Shown: positions 53,013 to 64,000 of the stretch, piece by piece
How the letters are laid out: each line of letters opens with the position of its first letter
How positions within the stretch are numbered: position 1 is the stretch's first letter
Source: Cavenderia fasciculata
Taxonomy: Eukaryota > Evosea > Eumycetozoa > Acytosteliales > Cavenderiaceae
Assembly (NCBI RefSeq): GCF_000203815.1
Contig: NW_004457723.1
Location: forward strand, 682,001 to 746,000
Length of the DNA stretch: 64,000 bases
Direction: 5' to 3'
Translations under genes and position numbers: made by a program
Notes under the pieces: model-generated
Databases searched by the model: none
Told to the model about the DNA's origin: nothing
The model's input: the letters and a program-made list of their open reading frames with translations, nothing else

Positions 53013-56000
53013 TTATTGAGTAATATAAATAATCATATTTCTTTGATATGATGTTTGGGATGGTAAGATTGTGAATATTTGACTATTATTTGGTACGATT
53101 AACATGGGTGTTAGGGTGTCAATGTGGATAGAGTACTGACCAGGCGAAGAGACTGTAAAGTTGTAATGACCAGGATTATTTGGGTCAAATGAACCTGCAA
53201 TGATTAGTCCACTAGACAATTGCTTTAAACTAAACTGACACTCTGTAAATATCTTGTCGGATGGTGGATTAAAGAGATTGTTGTAATCTGATTCTCTCCA
53301 AAAGAATCCATAAATACTGATGGGAAGAGAGATGTTGTTTGATAGTTGACCACCAACTTGTACTTGAATATTTGTAATCGAGGTGAGGTCTGTCGAACTA
53401 TAATGGACACATTGGGTAGTAGTGTCATTAAAGTAATAGTTGTAGGGACAATTAATTGATGGTTTGTTGTTGTTGGAGTAGTGGACAATCGATGCCGAGC
53501 TAGGGTTTATCGAATACGGTGGATTCTCTGGTACAAGGTTGGTACCACGAATAATATAGGTTCCGCCGATAGCAACAGCATGTGAAATGGTTGGAGGAGC
53601 ATAGGAAAAGGTTATCTTTGATGGAAGAAGTATTTGACCATTGACAGATGCATTGATCACCATATTACCTCCTACTCCACGTGGAACTCTACACTCTACA
53701 AACGTCTCAAATGGACGACAGTTACCTAGTATGATTGGAGGTTCGCTGGTCAGAGGTTGCTGGATAGAGACAAAGTCAATGCCCAATGGAGAATTACCCC
53801 AACCATATCCACTAAATGCAATTATACCACCGGTATTGGTCGACAATAGTGAAGAGACGTTGGTGATAATTGGAGCAAGATACTTGAATTGATTAGATGC
53901 ACCTGCAGTCATACCACCAGCTACAACCCATACCTTTGGTGCGATTGGGAATGGTTTTCCAATTGGTACCTTTGCCATTACATAATTATTGGTGTAATTG
54001 ACAATATCCAATATAGTATCTTCCAGAGCTACGATTGGTGCTACTCCTTGACCACTATCAACAAAAGCATCACCATGAATAACAATATAATCTCTTGGGT
54101 CACCTTGTGAAGGGAGGACATCATCGATTCTTGGTGGTTCGTAGAATATCAATGGTGATCCGATTGATAGTTGAGTGTGTTGGTTGGCTACACCGACCGA
54201 TACAAGTGTAAACTTTGTAACCATTGGTGGTGATCGACAAAGAATAATGTATCGTGAGACAGACTGTGGCGTGCAAACATACGTGTTGTCAAACAATACT
54301 TTAACATCTGACAATGAGGTTCCAAAGTTATCTCCGGTTACTGTAATGAGTTGATTACCATTACTGTTGATCATATTGGATGGAGTCACTGACTCTATTT
54401 CAGGTGCATTTAGGTCAAATGTAAATGTTGATCTTTGTAGATTATAACCTCTAATCTTGACGAGATTGTTTGTTCCGACCACCGACAAGGGTAGTTTGAC
54501 GTGTGCACTGGTCGAATCAAACAGTTGGACGGATGGACTTGGCACACCTCCCACTTCAAACACATGCGATGTGTTGAACCCATTACCCATGATGGTCAGA
54601 GTAGTTGACGCGTCTCCAGAGGGCGGGTTAATCAACTCGATGACCGGGCCTGTGAATCGCGTGCAAATAGGGTAGGTTGGATAATTGTCAAATTGCGAAA
54701 AGTTGGCCATTTGAATATCACATAGTTTCGAGTTGAGTGTTGCAATAGCCAGTCCCTCATAATACTTTATGTAACCACTTCCACTGTCTTGGTACGATGA
54801 TGCTGGTTTGGGGATATAGTAAATCTCCAAGTCTCCAAACGATAATAGATCCCAACTGTGTTGATTAGATACCATCATTTGCTTGAGTAGTTGAGTGATG
54901 GTGTAGATGGACATTGGTGAGCATATTTGGATGGATCCAGGTGTTTGGTCATCCAACACACCATCTCGATAACACAATTCAATTGGATGGGTAGAGATAT
55001 GGTCACGATTCATCTCCTCGAGGAATTTGATCACCTGGTTACCAGACTGTGTCTTTGGTTCAACTAGTAATAGTTTGATCGCTTGATTGACTCCTGCAAT
55101 GGTTTGCCAATCATCAAGTGATCCAACAAGCTTCATAATATTACGTTGACTCTGATTTAAAATATCAGATTGTTTAATATAATCGGTTGGATCATTAAAC
55201 AATTGTACAAGTGCTGGTGTTACTAAATCTTCTTTTAACCAATCATACATTTGTATGTGTTCTTGATTATTTTTACCAAGGTGGAGTGAAGAAAACATTG
55301 TTGTAACCGTTGTAGTTGTAGTTGTAGTTGTAGTTGGTAGAGGTGGACGAATTTGAATATACCGATTATAAAGAATATTTTTGTTGGTTTCAGTATGAGT
55401 TGGTGCTGGAAGTGTTGGTAATAATAGAGTCATACTATTAATATTTTGAGCAGTGGTAAGAGTTGCAATGGAATTGAATAGATCAACCCATTGAACATTA
55501 ATATCACCAACTTGCTTGCCTACAGATGCTCCATGTTCATCGGCATAGTCATTATTTAACCAATCCCATGCTGCACTTGCACTTCTATAGAATAATTCCT
55601 CGTCACTTGGATTATTCATATTTGGTTGATTCTCTTCATAACCAAAAATATTTAAAATGTTGGTCGTAGGTGTTTTAAATTTATCAAAGTATGTAAAACA
55701 TACTTGGAAATCTGTTGTCCCAATAGTTCCTGTTAATTCCTTTAAAAAAAAAAAAGATAAATATCAGTTAGTAAAATAATAATCAATATGTTTTCTTTTA
55801 AAATACATTAAAAATGAATTTAGAAATAGCAAATATAATTCCATTTGCCCAATTTGGTTGGATTTCATCGGTTTTGAATATAGATTGAATAGCTTGTTGA
55901 GGGAATATAGAGGCAATTTTGAGGAGTGCTAAATAGGTCAATTCCTCTGGACAATAGGTACCAGTGTTTCTCATTAAAACCTTGTGTGAATGTTTATAAA

Positions 56001-59000
56001 ATGGCGAGTCAATGTCTGGCTTGACGATGGTTTGGAATTGAGTATTTGTCAAGTCAACAGATGCAATTAATAGAGGTTGGATGTGATCAACTAGTTTCTC
56101 TAAATAAACGATGGTGTGGTAGTCGGGGATGAGTGTCACGTCATAGTCACGGGTATATGTTTGTAGACGAAGATAGCTGTATTTGTCAACCCTTTGATTG
56201 GGTCTAGTGTTGGGAGGAAGAAGAGGGTAGTCTGGAATAGGGAGGGGGGTGGTCTCGGTGATTTGTGTAGTTCTTGCTTGTGATAATTGAACACATTCTG
56301 TTTGATCACCATCAATGTCAAAAATACCATCATAGTAATCACAAACAATGGCTCTACTATTCTTTGCTACAAAATCCAATGCCATGGTGTCGTGTGCGTG
56401 AAAGTCGACAATATCCCTGACAGCTGTTCCAACTGGCAAAGTTGATTCTTCTTGACCAATTTCATTTGGATCGAGGTGAGTACGAATAGCAAGTACTTTA
56501 ACTTCATGCACCGGTGTTGTAAACCCACTGTCAAAGTGTCTTGGAATCATCCTCGTACTCGGTCCATTGACAAGTACTTCTTTCACCTCGACTGTGATTT
56601 CTCCCTGGTCACCAACCGGACGGTTTAATTGAACCGGTTGACGAATCCAATTAGAGTAAAACAATCCGTTGTTTTTAGTATGAGGGGTACCCAGTATACC
56701 AGCAGAGTTTGGAACTCTAGTCGAGTAAATATGGACCATTCTATTGAGTTGGTATGACAACTCTGGATGTTGAATACATAGTGCACCACCACCTCTTCTA
56801 CCCTGATTATTATGACGATTCAAATCACCAAAACAAACCATGTTTTCATTTTCGTCATGCCAAAAAGCAGGGTCCATTTGTGGCCGCACTGGAAAAAGTA
56901 ATTTGACATGACTTCCTCCTTGATGAACATGTGGTTTATAACCAGAGGGAGCTGTTACATCTTCGGCAATATAGGGAGCATAACGAATGGTTGAAACATC
57001 GACCAAATACTCTGTTACAGGGGTCTGTTTACCAGCCAAATAATAATATGAAAACATTTTCCTCTGGAATTCACTAGCTACAATACTCCAAAGATCAATT
57101 CCATCATAAAACTAAATAAATATTGATAATAAATAAATATTAATATTTAAAACTATGGTCAATTATTATTATTAATTAACTTCAATTTTATCGTTTACAT
57201 ACCTGACCACGACGACTACCACGATTAACAGATAAATAATCTGAGAGAACTAGGCCAGCAGGTATATTATTTAGATCTAATCTAAAAGTTGAAGTAGTCT
57301 TTGAAATTAAACTAGTCTTGTAGAAAAGTTTGGCTCTCATTCCAGATATTCTAAATTCTGGTGATACCCAATAACAAATATCGAGAAGATTTTGTTGGAT
57401 GGGTAGTGCAGCTCTACAGAGATTGATTTGGTCTTGTCTGTTGGGAGCATACACCAGAGGTGGGCCAGCACTCAGAATACGTCTGTTCCAGCGCCCAGAT
57501 GGTTGCAAAAAGTCATATAAATAGGGATTGGCATCGATACGTTGTTGGTCCCATGACTCTAACCCATTTTGTACGAGGTGAGGGATATTTGGATACTTTG
57601 AGAATGGTAACATATAGACATCATTCTTGAAAAGATATTCACCCGCATTATTTAAATCATCTATTCCATAACAAAAGAAATGTTGATTATTTCTTGCTGT
57701 TCCAAGCCAATATATACCTTTATCTGGTGTTCTAAAAAAATTAAAATAATAAAAATTAAAATAATAAAAATAATTAATATTATTAATATGCATATATTTG
57801 ATATATATATTGTTTATATGACATACGCAAATTTTAATGGACCATTTGAATGAGATGAGGGGAAACCAGGGTTAGAGTGAATAATATGAATACCACGTAT
57901 ACCAGCACCATTTGGTAAATCCTCCCAAATAAATATTCCTTTTGAATGACCTATAAGCTTCTCTGGCCATTCATGAGCGAAATCACCATTGGCTGCTCTT
58001 TGTGCAGGTTGGTCATTGTAGAATATGTAATAGTAACCGTCGTCTGTCAGCTGATCAAAGGTTGCAGCTAGTAGATTGTATGGTCGATGGTCGCTAGTAC
58101 GTTCAGCTCCAAGGTTGTAGCCAACCGTCAGTTCTTTGGTCGAATCATCTATCCACATATACTTTTGTTCCGATGATGCCCAATTCATCTTGAGTACCAA
58201 GAACCAATCCCTTGAAGGATTAGATCCATCCGCTTCATCTTGACCCAGACAAGACAATGTTTGAGCGTTGAATGTCACGCTGTCTCCATCGGTTGCTACG
58301 ATATTGGTGGTAGGATGAGTGACGGTTACTTTAACGTCTAACGGTCCAATATCATCTCCTCCATCTCTTGTACATTTGACATTTGTATCGGGTATCGTGA
58401 TCACTGGATTAGTACAAACATGACCACCAATAGTAATTTGAATTAAATTATTAGCAGTTCCAAACCCTTGACCTACAATCTCAACCTTGACCTTTTTCCT
58501 TCTTGGCCATTGTCTTGGTGCGACAGAGTTAACGATCGGTCCCGCATACACAAGTGTTTGGGCTGCTGTAACTACAACTTGATTGTCTTGTAATTGTAAG
58601 GTAACTGGATAGTTACCTGGACGACTTGCAGGTCTCTTACATTTGAGTGTTGTAGTAGTTTGTAATGTGCAATCGGTTGCAATAGGGATTTGAATCGAAT
58701 TCACAACTACACCCAAAACTTGATCCAAACTTGTTCCAGTCATTGTAAAATAATCACCTCCTGATGGTGATTCCGAATCTGATACAATATTAGTTACAGT
58801 CACATCTAATTGGAATTAAAATAAAAAATGATTAATAAATTGAGTGATCCTCAAGTAGACCTTTTAATTTGTATCATACCATAATAAGTAAAATCGATAA
58901 AAGTGTTAAATGATTGACCAAACAAATCAAATGTGATTGGAAAGGTACCAACCTGACGGTATTGAACATCTGCCAATTTACATTTAAATTTGGTGTCTTC

Positions 59001-61182
59001 ACCGTCTGCGACGGGAGCCATTTCAATCTCTTGACATCCCTGTCCATTGATTTTAAATTGATAGTATTTTTGTAAAAGTTGACTATCAACAATAATAGTA
59101 GTAATGTCTGGAATAGGAATAAAGTTTGAAACTTGAATGACAATAGATTTAGATAGAGTATTGATAAAACTCTTGTCATTATCAATATTCAAGATTTTAG
59201 GTTCTAAATAAATAAATAAAAATATTTTTAATTCATTAATAAAAAAGGTAATAATATAATATAATATTATTCAATAATTATTGAATTCATACCTTTAAAT
59301 AATAAAGATAAAGTTGAAGTGGAAATTTGATCATCAACCTCACCAGTGATAAGGATTGGTTGATCTAGAATAGCATTTGTTTGTAATGAAGAATCTAGTT
59401 TAACGGTCAAGAATCCACCACTACCTTGATTTAAAAGATCATCATGATCCAAATCATCTCTTGTAAATTCTTGTTGACCAACTATTAGTTTTGTCAATTG
59501 ATCTAAATTCTCTCCACGTATTCTAATTGATGTAAATCCCTTATTCACCATAAACAAAGGTTCAATTTTACTAAAATGAGTTTCTTTAAAGATAGATAAA
59601 TATAAATATTATACTTTTTGTTTTTTTTTTGTTACTTTTCTATATTTTTACAACATACCAAAATAATTAAATCTAACTTGGTCTGATGATTGAATATCAA
59701 TACTATCAATAGTTGCTTGAATATTAAATTCTAATGAATAAATATCTGTTGGGAATGGTTGAGTGTAGGGACCAGTCGTACATAATACACTCGTTTCAGA
59801 TACAGATAGTGTATCAATATCGCAACCAACCCCACCAATATTGATAGATGAAACTAATTCCAAATGAGCTCCTTCAATTTGAATTTGTCTACCTTTGGTT
59901 TTTAATCCATTTGATGGATTGATTTGTGAAATAATTGGTACTATAATTCAATTAAATAATACTAACATTAGATTATAATTAGATGTTTGTTATGTTTCAA
60001 AAATTTACATACCAAATGATTTATAAAAAATATCACCAACAACTCTAATGGTTGGAAGAGGACTTGGTTGAGGTACAGATACAGCAATTTGATATAATTT
60101 TTGGTGACCGGCTTCGATACCAGTGATGATTGGAATTATGCATTCAATCTGATCAAAACGATGATTGACGATTGCACTTTCACAAGCTACCGTTTGGGTA
60201 CTATCCAAACTATCAATAAATGTTACTGTTATAGCATCAACTATACTAGTATCGGGAACAATAAAATGTTCTCCAAATATTGTAAGTGTATGACTATTTA
60301 AACAAATTCCATTTTTTGATACACCTTGAATAATTGGAACTAAATAAATAATAATTAATTAGTAAAATACTTTAAATTTAATAAAGAAGTTAAGATGTTG
60401 TTGTGGGTACTTACTGACATAAGAGAATGGATCATATGCAACAACAGTTTGACCGGTATAGACAGTCAAGATAATTGGGACATCTTCAACTTTTTGAGAG
60501 ACGGGTGCTTCTACCACAATCAAATTACTATGAGCTATTTGGACGGGTGCATCGTATCCTCCAATCGTAACGGTTGGATCATCATCAGTTGGATTAATCT
60601 TAAAGTCATCTCCTATAATAGTAACCAATCCACCAAATGGTTTTCCACCAACATAAGCTCTATCATTTTCAACTTCATCAATAAATGGTTCTTTTTTTTT
60701 TTAATAATAAATATAAATAAACAACTTTAAAAGTTAGTATATAATAATATTATTTTGTTTAAAATAGAGAATAAATGTGTCATACCAAGATAAATGAATT
60801 CTCTTTGATCGACAATAGCAGAATTGACAATGATTTCAAGTTTGAGTGTTGCTTTTGCCAAACCATTGAGTTTACGCTTTCTATTGATCGAAGTTGGATC
60901 TGCCCAAATACCTGGTGGAGCAGGTGGCGAGCTATAGACTAGCCAACCATCAACCGATGTTTCTACAAACGTACAGAGATATTCTAATTGTGCAAATGTG
61001 ATTCTAACCTTTTCAATGGTCGATTGATCAATACCTGATATTTTAATCAGTGATCCTCCATTGGTGTAGGCAGCTGCACTCTGTACAACGATTTGTGCAT
61101 GCACCAATACTAGTACTTGACTACTTGACAATAATCCTATTAGCAACAACCCTAACAGCCTGTGTGCCAATAAAGATATCAT
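53013..61182 (-). CDS. Giant secreted IPT/TIG-repeat protein with embedded DNase II domain (2478 aa)
   Basis: Ten exons: 61182-60786, 60690-60415, 60339-60013, 59940-59659, 59583-59293, 59203-58880, 58805-57827, 57731-57203, 57111-55807, 55739-53013. A signal peptide of about 29 residues opens the protein. IPT/TIG domains occupy residues about 30-815, mostly one per exon. Residues about 818-1250 form a DNase II domain: CLGQDE and DWFLVLKM start, YYYIFYNDQP, first HxK in GHSKGIFIW (H919, K921), IIHSNPGFP, second HxK in GSHVKLLF (H1203, K1205), and CFGDLNRH...RRGGGALC. Both phospholipase-D-like catalytic pairs are therefore intact. An unrecognised part (about 1270-1880) follows, then at least five more TIG domains to the end. 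No membrane anchor is seen. Likely an extracellular or phagolysosomal acid DNase. Confidence 0.85.
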
Positions 61183-62059
61183 CTTTATTCTCTCTATAAC
61201 TCTTTTCTAATGTAATGTAATTTACAATACAAGAAATATATTTTTGTTTGTTCTTCTACTGTACAACTAGAAATGATGTGATAGGAACCTAGGTCCTATC
61301 ACATCCACCTAACTGCCTACCAACCTACACCTAAGAAGATATGAGGTGATCCTTGTCGTTTGTACATCTTTTGCCAATCTCCCAACATGGCCACCAACGC
61401 TATGATGATGTTATTGGATGGGTATAATCTTTGCTCTGGTTTGTTAATCTACTTTAAGGAAACAAGATAGTAGAGTGCCAATCCGCATTTGGATGATTGA
61501 TTGGCCATTAGCACTAGCACTTCCTCTTTTGTCATCGTCCTTGTCGTCCATGGGGAGATATTTGCATCATTCATTGAATTTTTGTTTGGCCATCGTTTGG
61601 TTTGTTTGTTGATTGATGGAACATTCGTTGCTTGCATTTTCTAGTTGTGTCCCATTAAGTTGGTGTGGCACTTAACTCTTGCGTCTTTTGATTATCTCGT
61701 TGTATCTCGAGAGAATTATAAGGAAGCAGCTGACCACCAAATCTAATTTGATTTACTACTACTTTGGTGGCGCATGATAATGAATATGAATGCAATCACC
61801 ATCTACTCGCCGCATGATGGATGCTGCAGCTACTAATAGTAGGTAAGTTGTAGATTCGTTTCTACCCTTCTCTTTCCATCTTCCTTATTTGATAGTACTA
61901 TCTATCATAATTAATAATTAATAATAAACAAACAGACATACAGAGCAGAGATATATAATAATATAATATAATAATATAATAATATAATACAAAGAAGCAA
62001 TAAATAAATTAAAAAGGGTGAACTTCACAATAGAGTGCTTTTGAAAAGAATTGACAAAA
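61183..62059. promoter_or_regulatory. 877-bp divergent promoter of the two DNase II-family genes
   Basis: No gene seen; the short open frame at about 61449-61637 has no support. The interval is less AT-rich than most spacers here at 61260-61860, then becomes AT-rich with TAATA runs before the plus-strand start. It contains the palindrome listed separately. Confidence 0.6.
61275..61305. promoter_or_regulatory. 31-bp near-perfect palindrome (possible shared operator)
   Basis: Perfect 11-bp arms GATGTGATAGG and CCTATCACATC flank AACCTAGGT, itself an ACCTAGGT palindrome with one extra A. It lies about 90 bp from the minus-strand start codon. It could be a site for a dimeric factor. Confidence 0.7.
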
Positions 62060-64000
62060 ATGAGGTGGGGTACATTATGTTCACCGCCCTTTTCTTTTGC
62101 ACTATTATTGTTTAATATAGTTATATTATTATCAATAACAAATGTAAATGCACGTATGTAATCAAAGTCGGTTGAAGAATGTATTATTATTATTAACTTA
62201 CTCTGTTCTTATCATTTGAAGAAATCAAATGTATATCACCTGGTGGAGACAAGGTAACATGGTGGTTAGCAAGAAAACTACCGTTTACACAAAAGTATAT
62301 CTATTGGAGTAGTGCCAGCAATGATATTCAGGTGTACAACTCGATTAGTGATGATGACAGTTGTCTCGGACGTACACTCGACCAGCTGACAAACACTGTC
62401 ATTGCAAACACTTCGTCTACAGGGACCGCCTATTTGGCATTCAATAATGAACCATACTATGACGACGGCTCGGGTGACATTGCACCTGCAATGATGGGTG
62501 TTCTACCCTTAGATACACAACAATGGGGAAAGGGTCTACTCATCTACCGAAAGGAGCAAGGTGGAGGTGTCTTTATCAAACATTCTCTGCCATCGTTTCC
62601 CATCCCTATCAGAGGGTCTATCACATCTGTCAAGAAACCATCAGATAATCCTAATGGATTATGGTACCCTAAAGAGTATTTAGTCGGTACACCACCACTA
62701 GAGTTTGATCAACAAGATGATGTATCTCTTGGTCACTCGTTTATGTGTGCACCCAGTGCCCCGATTGCCGATATGGCCGATATCATCAAGTATGGGTATC
62801 CACATGTCTATGCCTCTAATCTCGGGCTGGCACCTACCGCCATTCCAGAACTAGACACTATTATTCGAAATGATCCAATCAACTCTTATTCAAGAGCAAC
62901 GTCGACTGTCCAATTCTATTATATTGGTGCACTTGGGTTCCCAGGATTCTATAGTACTGCTCCAAACTTTAATGTTACTATTCCAGTATGTTTAGGTTAT
63001 AAACTCCTCAAAATATAAATATACATATATGTTATAAATATACTTACCACTATCTATTATCTAACTAATTTAGAGCAGATATAATATTAAAAGTAGTATT
63101 AATGCAATCACTGAAATAAGATTACCAGAGGATTTTATCAAACAATACAATATATCAAGATCACTGGCTCATTGGAGTATGGATGTTGATATGTCACGTC
63201 TAATGTTTTCAAAGGATCAAATTTGTATTATGGATTATACAAATGAAGGTGTAAGTTAAGTTAATCATATAAACCAACAAGATCGATATTAATATTTCTA
63301 TTTTTATTTTTCTTTTAGAATGGAAATTATATGCTTTGTGTAATTGGGTTACCATTTAATGATAAAGGAAAACCTTGGTCACAGTTTATTCAACGATCAA
63401 CTGTCAGGTATATTACTGGTTGTGTGGGTACATCATGTTCAACCAATCAATTGCTAGTCAACTTTTTAACAACGTTTAGTGGAAAGGTATTGTTTGATAT
63501 TAGTGCATTCACCACCAACTCTGATGCCGAGCAAATTGGTGATATTAGATCATATGCAAGACTTGTAGAAACCACCTTTTTACCAAATACAACCATTACC
63601 ATTGGTAGTAGTGATGTGCAAGCATGTGACGAAACATGTTTGAGTAGATTCTCTGAAAGATATATCTACCAAACAGACTCTACCGGTTTATTGCATTTTG
63701 AAAAAGCAATGGAGAAATCAATACTCTTTTCATTACAATTGTCAAGTAGTAGTAATGGTGGTACTGGTAGTGTCAGTGTCTACTGGAATGATAATAGAGA
63801 ATCTCCACAACTCGTATCAATTCCAATCGATCGTTCAACAGGAGTTGCCATAGTTGGCAGTCAATCGTCGTTGACCTATGCCATATTTATTTACAAGGTA
63901 TTATGTATCTTTGAACCAATTCGTCAACAATGGTTAAGTACTAGTAGTGGTGTTGGTATTAATATATCAACTGTTCAAGTTCATCTTGACCGTATCAATC
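62060..64000 (+). CDS. Secreted DNase II-like protein, probably inactive (3' partial)
   Basis: Exons: 62060-62153, 62222-62985, 63074-63250, 63319->64000; the last remains open at the right edge. The signal peptide ends near VNA/QIKC. The DNase II fold is seen in CISPGGDKVTWWLARKLP, LGRTLDQL, AYLAFNNEPYYD, GKGLLIY, FIKHSLPSFP and a weak MDYTNEGNGNYMLCV equivalent of the GDLNRH/RGGG block. The catalytic pairs are broken: the first HxK is WGK (Trp codon 62524-62526) and the second is HWS (63170-63178). A C-terminal extension with Ser/Gly-rich text and a beta-rich region has no clear family. It is likely a binding or regulatory relative of the neighbouring enzyme. Confidence 0.75.

Follow-up and report, generated by a model that had tools for sequence, protein, structure and literature searches.

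Known members of the DNase II family are small stand-alone proteins, thought of as digestive enzymes. Can such a domain also be part of a giant multidomain protein, and what would a protein of this kind do? These questions are raised by a locus in a 64,000-nucleotide stretch of the Cavenderia fasciculata genome (the window), for which a first-pass annotation had proposed an in-frame ten-exon gene encoding 2478 aa, with a DNase II domain embedded between TIG domains. In this work, splice searches, Pfam and profile comparisons, family alignments, trees and estimates of selection were applied to this gene and to its relatives across the genome. Two types of giant are distinguished below: type B, to which this gene belongs, and type A, represented by its neighbor.

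One gene or several

The type B gene (53013..61182, minus strand) was reproduced exactly. A GT..AG/codon-usage search from the noted start codon, using a codon table that included two long ORFs of the giant itself and hence not fully independent, returned the identical ten-exon, 2478-aa gene at 61182..53013 (-). The same gene was obtained in a free-start splice search of the region, likewise not fully independent, as its codon table included the whole coding sequence of the giant. Exons 1-5 occupy 61182-60786, 60690-60415, 60339-60013, 59940-59659 and 59583-59293, and exons 6-10 occupy 59203-58880, 58805-57827, 57731-57203, 57111-55807 and 55739-53013, all on the minus strand; introns 1-6 are all of phase 1.

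A model of this length could be an artefact in which two or more neighboring genes are fused through false introns. Consistent with this, the start codons and the paralogue models are ab initio predictions, and four related genes (C13a-A, C13c-A, C13b-B and C13c-B) were modelled as two pieces each, whose translations were put together before the alignments and trees were made. Against it, the uninterrupted ORF 57814-58815 holds both a TIG match and the first part of the DNase II domain, so that the two are joined within one exon. The positions of introns 2 and 5-9 each fall inside a single uninterrupted exon of some paralogue model, and the paralogue C2_g2, on a different contig, matches the giant colinearly over aa 172-2302 (E 3.5e-139). 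On the strength of the colinear paralogue and the crossed intron places the fusion was rejected and is considered highly improbable, and the giant is confirmed, at the level of predicted sequence, as one gene with a DNase II domain between TIG arrays.

Domain architecture

The signal peptide of the first-pass annotation was retained as an N-terminal hydrophobic, signal-like segment (approximately 61084..61182, -) recognized by hydropathy. In a simple hydropathy scan of the giant this segment alone exceeded the threshold, and no transmembrane anchor was found.

The protein was submitted to Pfam as three pieces. TIG (PF01833) was matched in four stretches upstream of the DNase II domain (E 4.1e-30) and in five downstream (E 3.8e-24), scoring 104 and 84.9 bits, respectively (cut-off 20.9). 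Pairwise profile comparison, which is partly circular because its seed contained four units of the giant itself together with paralogue units, resolved seven TIG-like units in an N-terminal array (aa 133-812; 58267..60690, -), where at least six had been claimed, and five in a C-terminal array (aa 1933-2385; 53295..54653, -), also anticipated in that annotation, all with E 5.8e-6 or better. Exons 2-6 carry one unit apiece; the weakest unit is aa 428-524 (probability 85%). The likeness of aa 31-132 to TIG was marginal, and the tail (aa 2385-2478) and the control segments 1300-1420 and 1700-1800 gave no TIG profile match. Genome-wide, Pfam returned at least 150 scored TIG matches, an abundance comparable to published dictyostelid figures.

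Between the DNase II domain and the C-terminal array lies a conserved middle region without a Pfam match (aa 1263-1932; 54654..56730, -), the second part of which is similar to the type A middle (hhalign E 1.2e-4, probability 55%). A hidden second DNase II domain was rejected, as hhalign against DNase II gave nothing for the first part of the type B middle or for the whole type A middle.

The DNase II domain

The DNase II domain (about aa 815-1262; 56731..58260, -), split by introns 7 and 8, matched PF03265 with E 8.5e-27, scoring 94.6 bits where the cut-off is 23; the sub-threshold DNase_II score that would have spoken against the first-pass annotation did not occur. Both of the catalytic motifs named in the first-pass annotation, H919-S-K921 (57940..57948, -) and H1203-V-K1205 (56902..56910, -), align in register with the paralogues in a 23-sequence family alignment, and the GDLNRH...RGGG block was located by alignment at aa 1230-1247 (56776..56829, -). 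The domain also matches the sequence of PDB 5i3e (phmmer, E 8.2e-4), which, with 5unb, we take to be the Burkholderia DNase II; the first HxK faces GHTKG of 5i3e in a weak stretch of that alignment. Loss of the second HxK, where phmmer set 'DPAFW' opposite in the 5i3e alignment, was rejected, since H1203/K1205 fall into the DHxK column once the whole family is aligned. The residue preceding this motif is S in the giant, and D in the other eight HxK-bearing type B copies and in all four stand-alone copies. The distance between the second His and the GD block is 27 residues in the giant, versus 15 in 5i3e and 18 in the genome's stand-alone copy.

With both HxK motifs and the HS.P.FP and GD.NR...RGGG blocks, the giant resembles DNase II proteins at large (PF03265; e.g. 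human DNase II alpha, PDB 5i3e/5unb). It differs from the small known members, and from two bacterial relatives of 354 and 380 aa, in that its domain lies within a 2478-aa TIG protein and beside an HxK-less partner gene. These two relatives came from one prokaryotic scan with two short peptide patterns, in which 2 of 44 candidate stretches were confirmed, with open frames of these lengths, and no relative of the same architecture was found. In the collection of papers searched, none contained both 'DNase II' and 'TIG domain'.

A family of paired genes

Upstream of the giant, beyond an 877-bp intergenic region between divergent start codons (61183..62059, unstranded), begins the type A partner (62060..64000 within the window, +; PF03265 E 1.7e-22). 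Its model comprises seven exons and 2302 aa and extends beyond the window to contig position 751478. In the family alignment neither HxK motif is present in its DNase II domain.

A DNase_II profile search of the genome gave 33 matches; one each on C16, C1, C18 and C21 lie outside the resolved set, that on C16 being covered by no gene model of its stretch. Ten type B genes (layout TIG array-DNase II-middle-TIGs) and nine type A genes (DNase II-middle-TIGs) were modelled. They are spread over seven contigs and stand side by side in nine places, in eight of which, the giant and its neighbor included, the two are divergent (a raw count); the C17 pair is in tandem. Both HxK motifs are kept in nine of the ten type B copies, in none of the nine type A copies and in four of four stand-alone copies. 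The exceptional type B copy, on C5, has lost both catalytic His, and the first-HxK exons absent from the C13a-B and C17-B models were detected by frame scan.

The type A framework is conserved despite long branches: W45, W46, K135, G136, H152, S153 and several cysteines are common to eight or nine of the nine copies. For seven copies the model is a single open gene, with products of 1579-4607 aa; C17_g1 (4607 aa) may be a merger of two genes. C13a-A and C13c-A shift frame downstream of the segment used for dN/dS, where the C13b-A model has no intron; these two copies may be genuinely broken, or the sequence may be in error. The RGGG block is also absent from the stand-alone C12 trio, so its loss in type A is by itself no sign of inactivity. 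The genome further encodes an ordinary-looking stand-alone DNase II at C7:1359541 (299 bits), and lysosomal duty therefore need not rest on the giants.

The A and B trees are concordant on both well-supported locus groupings, which argues that the pair multiplied as a unit; C2, C5 and C7 are unplaced in both trees. The A-domains cluster together (99%), separate from the stand-alone copies. An exact 8-10-mer count between the paired genes gave no position-fixed promoter word, and AACTTCACA, found in four of six intergenic regions compared, was rejected as a common promoter motif, its position not being fixed.

Among close copies, dN/dS is 0.24-0.46 for the type B DNase II domain (the C13 values from 104 codons) and 0.33, 0.34 and 0.51 for that of type A, the latter being less secure because two of its three close copies (C13a, C13c) have a downstream frame break. 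In the type B copies this domain is the main dip in identity: between the C9 copies amino acid identity is 0.73 in DNase II versus 0.90 in the N-terminal TIGs, 0.85 in the middle and 0.97 in the C-terminal TIGs, and between C13 b/c nucleotide identity is 0.67-0.85 in DNase II versus 0.90-1.00 across the greater part of the N-terminal TIGs. C13 b/c show further low-identity stretches, e.g. the C-terminal end, and the 100-codon windows in which their dN/dS exceeds 1 (1.16-1.35, based on few changes) fall outside DNase II. Positive selection on the type B domain was rejected, the segment dN/dS being below 1; since dS is raised as well, old or exchanged sequence is favored.

Interpretation

The architecture, the retention of HxK in B and its loss in A, the conserved A framework and the repeated pairing are properties of the predicted sequences; secretion, activity, substrate, site of action and any A-B contact are what we infer from them. 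We consider it slightly more likely than not that the giant is an exported DNase II, competent for catalysis and mounted in a long TIG stalk, that is co-inherited with a divergently encoded non-catalytic type A partner. Both proteins would be exported, and their TIG arms would anchor them to matrix, cell surfaces or each other. DNase II builds one centre from two HKD-type motifs and does not require a divalent metal (PMC4148230); the type B domain would cleave DNA by this metal-independent two-HxK chemistry, and the type A domain might bind DNA or B, for docking or restraint. Contact between the two is purely conjectural. The arrangement is reminiscent of tgrB1/tgrC1, but with no membrane anchor seen by hydropathy. 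The first-pass annotation had suggested an adhesive or matrix-bound acid nuclease acting perhaps on food, biofilm or trap DNA; of this, the sequence supports the combination of a DNase II domain bearing the two catalytic motifs, TIG arms and a signal-like N-terminus. Its entry dealt with one gene, naming neither the related HxK-less giant next to it nor the nine places where such genes adjoin. Several observations count against the preferred reading: the His loss in the C5 type B copy, the S before the second HxK, the tandem C17 pair, the frame breaks in C13a-A and C13c-A, the negative promoter search and the unplaced C2, C5 and C7.

A simple digestive role is a less likely alternative, though one to be taken seriously. 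Type B would be a nuclease that degrades bacterial DNA after export or in the phagosome, its TIG domains only spacers or binders of bacterial surfaces, and type A a lingering relative without function. DNase II cuts DNA to oligonucleotides, a tested member working best at slightly acid pH (PMC4148230), and Dictyostelium discoideum feeds on bacteria (PMC5758549); the wide occurrence of TIG in the genome and the frame breaks in two of nine type A copies also fit. However, the seven open type A genes, their near-invariant framework residues and a dN/dS below 1 upstream of the frame breaks speak against a relic, and the repeated co-retention of A and B is left without explanation. It is unlikely that the pairs serve for recognition in the manner of tgrB1/tgrC1, with DNase II mainly a variable binding module and catalysis secondary. 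Divergent TIG-gene pairs recall tgrB/tgrC (PMC12324515), and DNase II is the main identity dip between close type B copies (C9, C13 b/c). Yet the domain dN/dS with raised dS points to old or exchanged sequence, C13 b/c are dissimilar elsewhere too, HxK is retained in nine of ten type B copies and hydropathy reveals no membrane anchor. The A/B giants share TIG domains and paired divergent genes with TgrB1/TgrC1 (Tiger) of D. discoideum, but the latter are described as transmembrane proteins with cytoplasmic parts (PMC12324515), and the giants contain DNase II.

The presence in one genome of ten type B genes with TIG arms, of which nine retain both catalytic motifs and nine adjoin an HxK-less gene, suggests two-component extracellular DNA handling. 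This would be of interest for a lineage whose sentinel cells cast nets of antibacterial DNA (PMC4773522), and the giants offer natural active/inactive enzyme pairs for probing the role of a pseudo-nuclease partner. A bolder version, which we hold to be rather unlikely, is a secreted two-part system for DNA handling and recognition, in which catalytic and pseudo-DNase II giants, inherited as divergent pairs, would be joined via TIG arms and DNase II domains, and the catalytic domain would be diversified between copies by exchange, so that the DNA structures processed or recognized outside the cell would differ from pair to pair (prey biofilm, the amoeba's own nets, or non-kin).

The DNase II-like family of Trichinella (e.g. 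TsDNase II-7) is also expanded and partly secreted, with one member inactive (PMC10249883, PMC4148230), and the descriptions given in the cited passages mention neither TIG domains nor gene pairing. In contrast to that expansion, HxK loss in the A/B giants tracks one partner type, with a single exception among the type B copies.

A single gene encoding a TIG-DNase II-TIG protein

The giant gene is located on the reverse strand at 61182..53013. A dynamic-programming splice search (GT..AG introns, AT-richness, and codon usage) from the start codon at 61182 yielded a ten-exon gene for 2478 aa that matches exactly the model proposed in the first-pass annotation, and a second search with free start sites recovered the same gene; the codon tables were trained partly (first search) or largely (free-start search) on the giant gene itself, and the tests are therefore not blind. 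The nine introns are 67-95 bp long and 77-92% AT. Introns 1-6 are all in phase 1 and each lies between TIG units, which makes exons 2-6 symmetric, with one domain apiece; the phases of introns 7-9 are 2, 0, and 0. Symmetric exons of this kind are linked to exon shuffling in animals; here the run of phase 1 introns occupies 58806-60785 in a protist, and each of exons 2-6 holds a single TIG.

The Pfam search, in which the protein was given in three pieces, bore out the previously proposed domain layout: TIG (104 bits) N-terminal to DNase_II (94.6 bits, cut-off 23), and TIG (84.9 bits) C-terminal to it, with no Pfam match for aa 1263-1932. In pairwise profile comparison, with a TIG seed including four of the protein's own units and many paralogue units, seven TIG-like units were found before the DNase II domain and five after it; aa 31-132 matched marginally, and no TIG match was obtained in the tail (2385-2478) or in the control segments 1300-1420 and 1700-1800. 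In a simple hydropathy scan the sole hydrophobic segment is the N-terminal one, so predicted secretion is the natural reading. The protein has a computed pI of 5.1 and 10 N-glycosylation sequons.

Three lines of evidence argue for a single gene rather than several. One ORF (57814-58815) carries a TIG match as well as the initial portion of DNase II. The paralogue C2_g2, from another contig, is colinear with the giant protein over aa 172-2302 (25% identity, E 3.5e-139). Finally, paralogue introns, from ab initio models, were mapped on the alignment as a stand-in for transcript evidence. The sites of introns 2, 7, and 9 are each spanned by an uninterrupted exon in C2_g2, those of introns 5, 6, and 7 each by one in C9_g2 (a paralogue on contig C9), and that of intron 8 by one in both; the giant gene has intron 9 in common, in place and phase, with C9_g2, C9_g3, and the copy on contig C5.

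A family of paired A and B genes

IPT/TIG proteins are reported to number 55, 76, and 110 in three dictyostelids (PMC4931340). The genome studied here (31 Mb, 21 contigs) contains 33 DNase_II matches and at least 150 TIG matches. Nine neighbourhoods, the window included, were read and gene-modelled. The giant gene, described previously as a single DNase II-TIG gene, is real, and belongs to a larger set than described: ten type B genes (TIG-DNase II-middle-TIG; one each on contigs C7, the giant gene itself, C2, C17, C14, and C5, two on C9, three on C13) and nine type A genes (DNase II-middle-TIG; one each on C7, C2, C9, C17, C14, and C5, three on C13). TIG profile matches were present in 18/18 A and B genes examined (split C13 models counted together), and the position of the C5 type B copy, a later model, coincides with Pfam TIG matches. 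The A and B DNase domains are related (hhalign E 5.7e-15, probability 98%), as are the middle regions over ~100 columns (E 1.2e-4, probability 55%).

Eight of the nine A/B neighbours are in divergent order, their modelled start codons being 610-1335 bp apart, and the C17 pair is in tandem; since the C13 pairs, three in number, arose by recent copying, the count by contig is 6/7 divergent. The tgrB/tgrC genes are described as paired and diverging, with one promoter (PMC12324515).

In the literature collection searched, no publication joining DNase II with a TIG domain or IPT TIG was found, nor one on deoxyribonuclease II domain architecture in Dictyostelium; proteins of this kind may already carry automatic annotation. 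What appears to be new is the architecture into which a known enzyme domain is built, together with the recurrence of a predicted non-catalytic partner. The function of these giants is inferred.

Weak SdrD B-like matches, below cut-off (E 2.9e-6 to 3.9e-5), were observed in the C17, C5, and C14 giants, within their C-terminal parts or close by.

Predicted catalytic and non-catalytic partners

The bacterial DNase II enzyme is a dimer. DNase II is described as a pseudodimer (PMC4148230). Both HxK motifs claimed for the giant protein were recovered: H919/K921 lies opposite the HxK of the bacterial DNase II PDB 5i3e, at a point where that alignment is weak, and H1203/K1205 is in the DH[SA]K column of a 23-sequence alignment (10 type B, 9 type A, and 4 stand-alone DNase II copies). 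For the second motif the alignment to 5i3e is misleading, owing to a difference in spacing: the histidine, or the residue replacing it, is separated from the GD block by 21-27 residues in the ten type B copies, by 18 in this genome's stand-alone enzyme, and by 15 in 5i3e.

Both motifs are present in 9/10 type B genes (seven by the 23-sequence alignment; the first motif of C13a and C17 was seen separately) and in 4/4 stand-alone copies. In the C5 type B copy the catalytic histidines are replaced by Q and Y; this model also lacks nearly all of the N-terminal TIG array. In type A, the first catalytic histidine is absent and the second HxK broken in all nine genes, the C2 copy retaining the histidine but having R in place of K. 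Type A also lacks the RGGG block, as does the stand-alone C12 trio, which retains both HxK. These three tandem DNase II-like genes (C12:1287001-1297000), modelled at 568-788 aa, carry HEKG and DHSK and gave no match to the local TIG profile.

Type A may be read as a maintained pseudo-enzyme, since W45, W46, K135, G136, H152, and S153 are retained in at least 8/9 copies and dN/dS is 0.33, 0.34, and 0.51 over 252-254 codons (three close copies; few changes, rough values). The certainty of this reading is lowered because two of these three copies, C13a and C13c, change frame downstream of the dN/dS segment, at sites that are intron-free in C13b; either the genes are broken or the sequence may be in error.

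Probable co-inheritance, and divergence between copies

The type A domains form one group (99%) in the DNase tree. In separate A and B trees, C9 with C17 and C14 with the C13 trio are each grouped at 100%, and the placement of C2, C5, and C7 is unresolved in both; the same supported groupings make it most likely that the A/B pair multiplied as a unit.

Of four segments compared between the C9 type B copies, DNase II has diverged most, with an aa identity of 0.73 and a dS of 0.41; the corresponding values are 0.90 and 0.12 for the N-terminal TIGs, 0.85 and 0.21 for the middle, and 0.97 and 0.18 for the C-terminal TIGs. The same identity dip is seen among the C13 type B copies, of which b and c diverge near the C-terminal end too. 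When recent copies are compared, dS and dN both peak locally in the DNase II domain of type B, and the flanking TIG arrays are mostly more alike. Positive selection on the domain is not evidenced: its dN/dS is 0.24-0.46, below 1, and the single C13 b/c windows at 1.16-1.35 are located outside it. The C13 copies are grouped as a+c (94%) in the DNase tree versus b+c (72%) in the longer tree, a conflict that hints at exchange among them.
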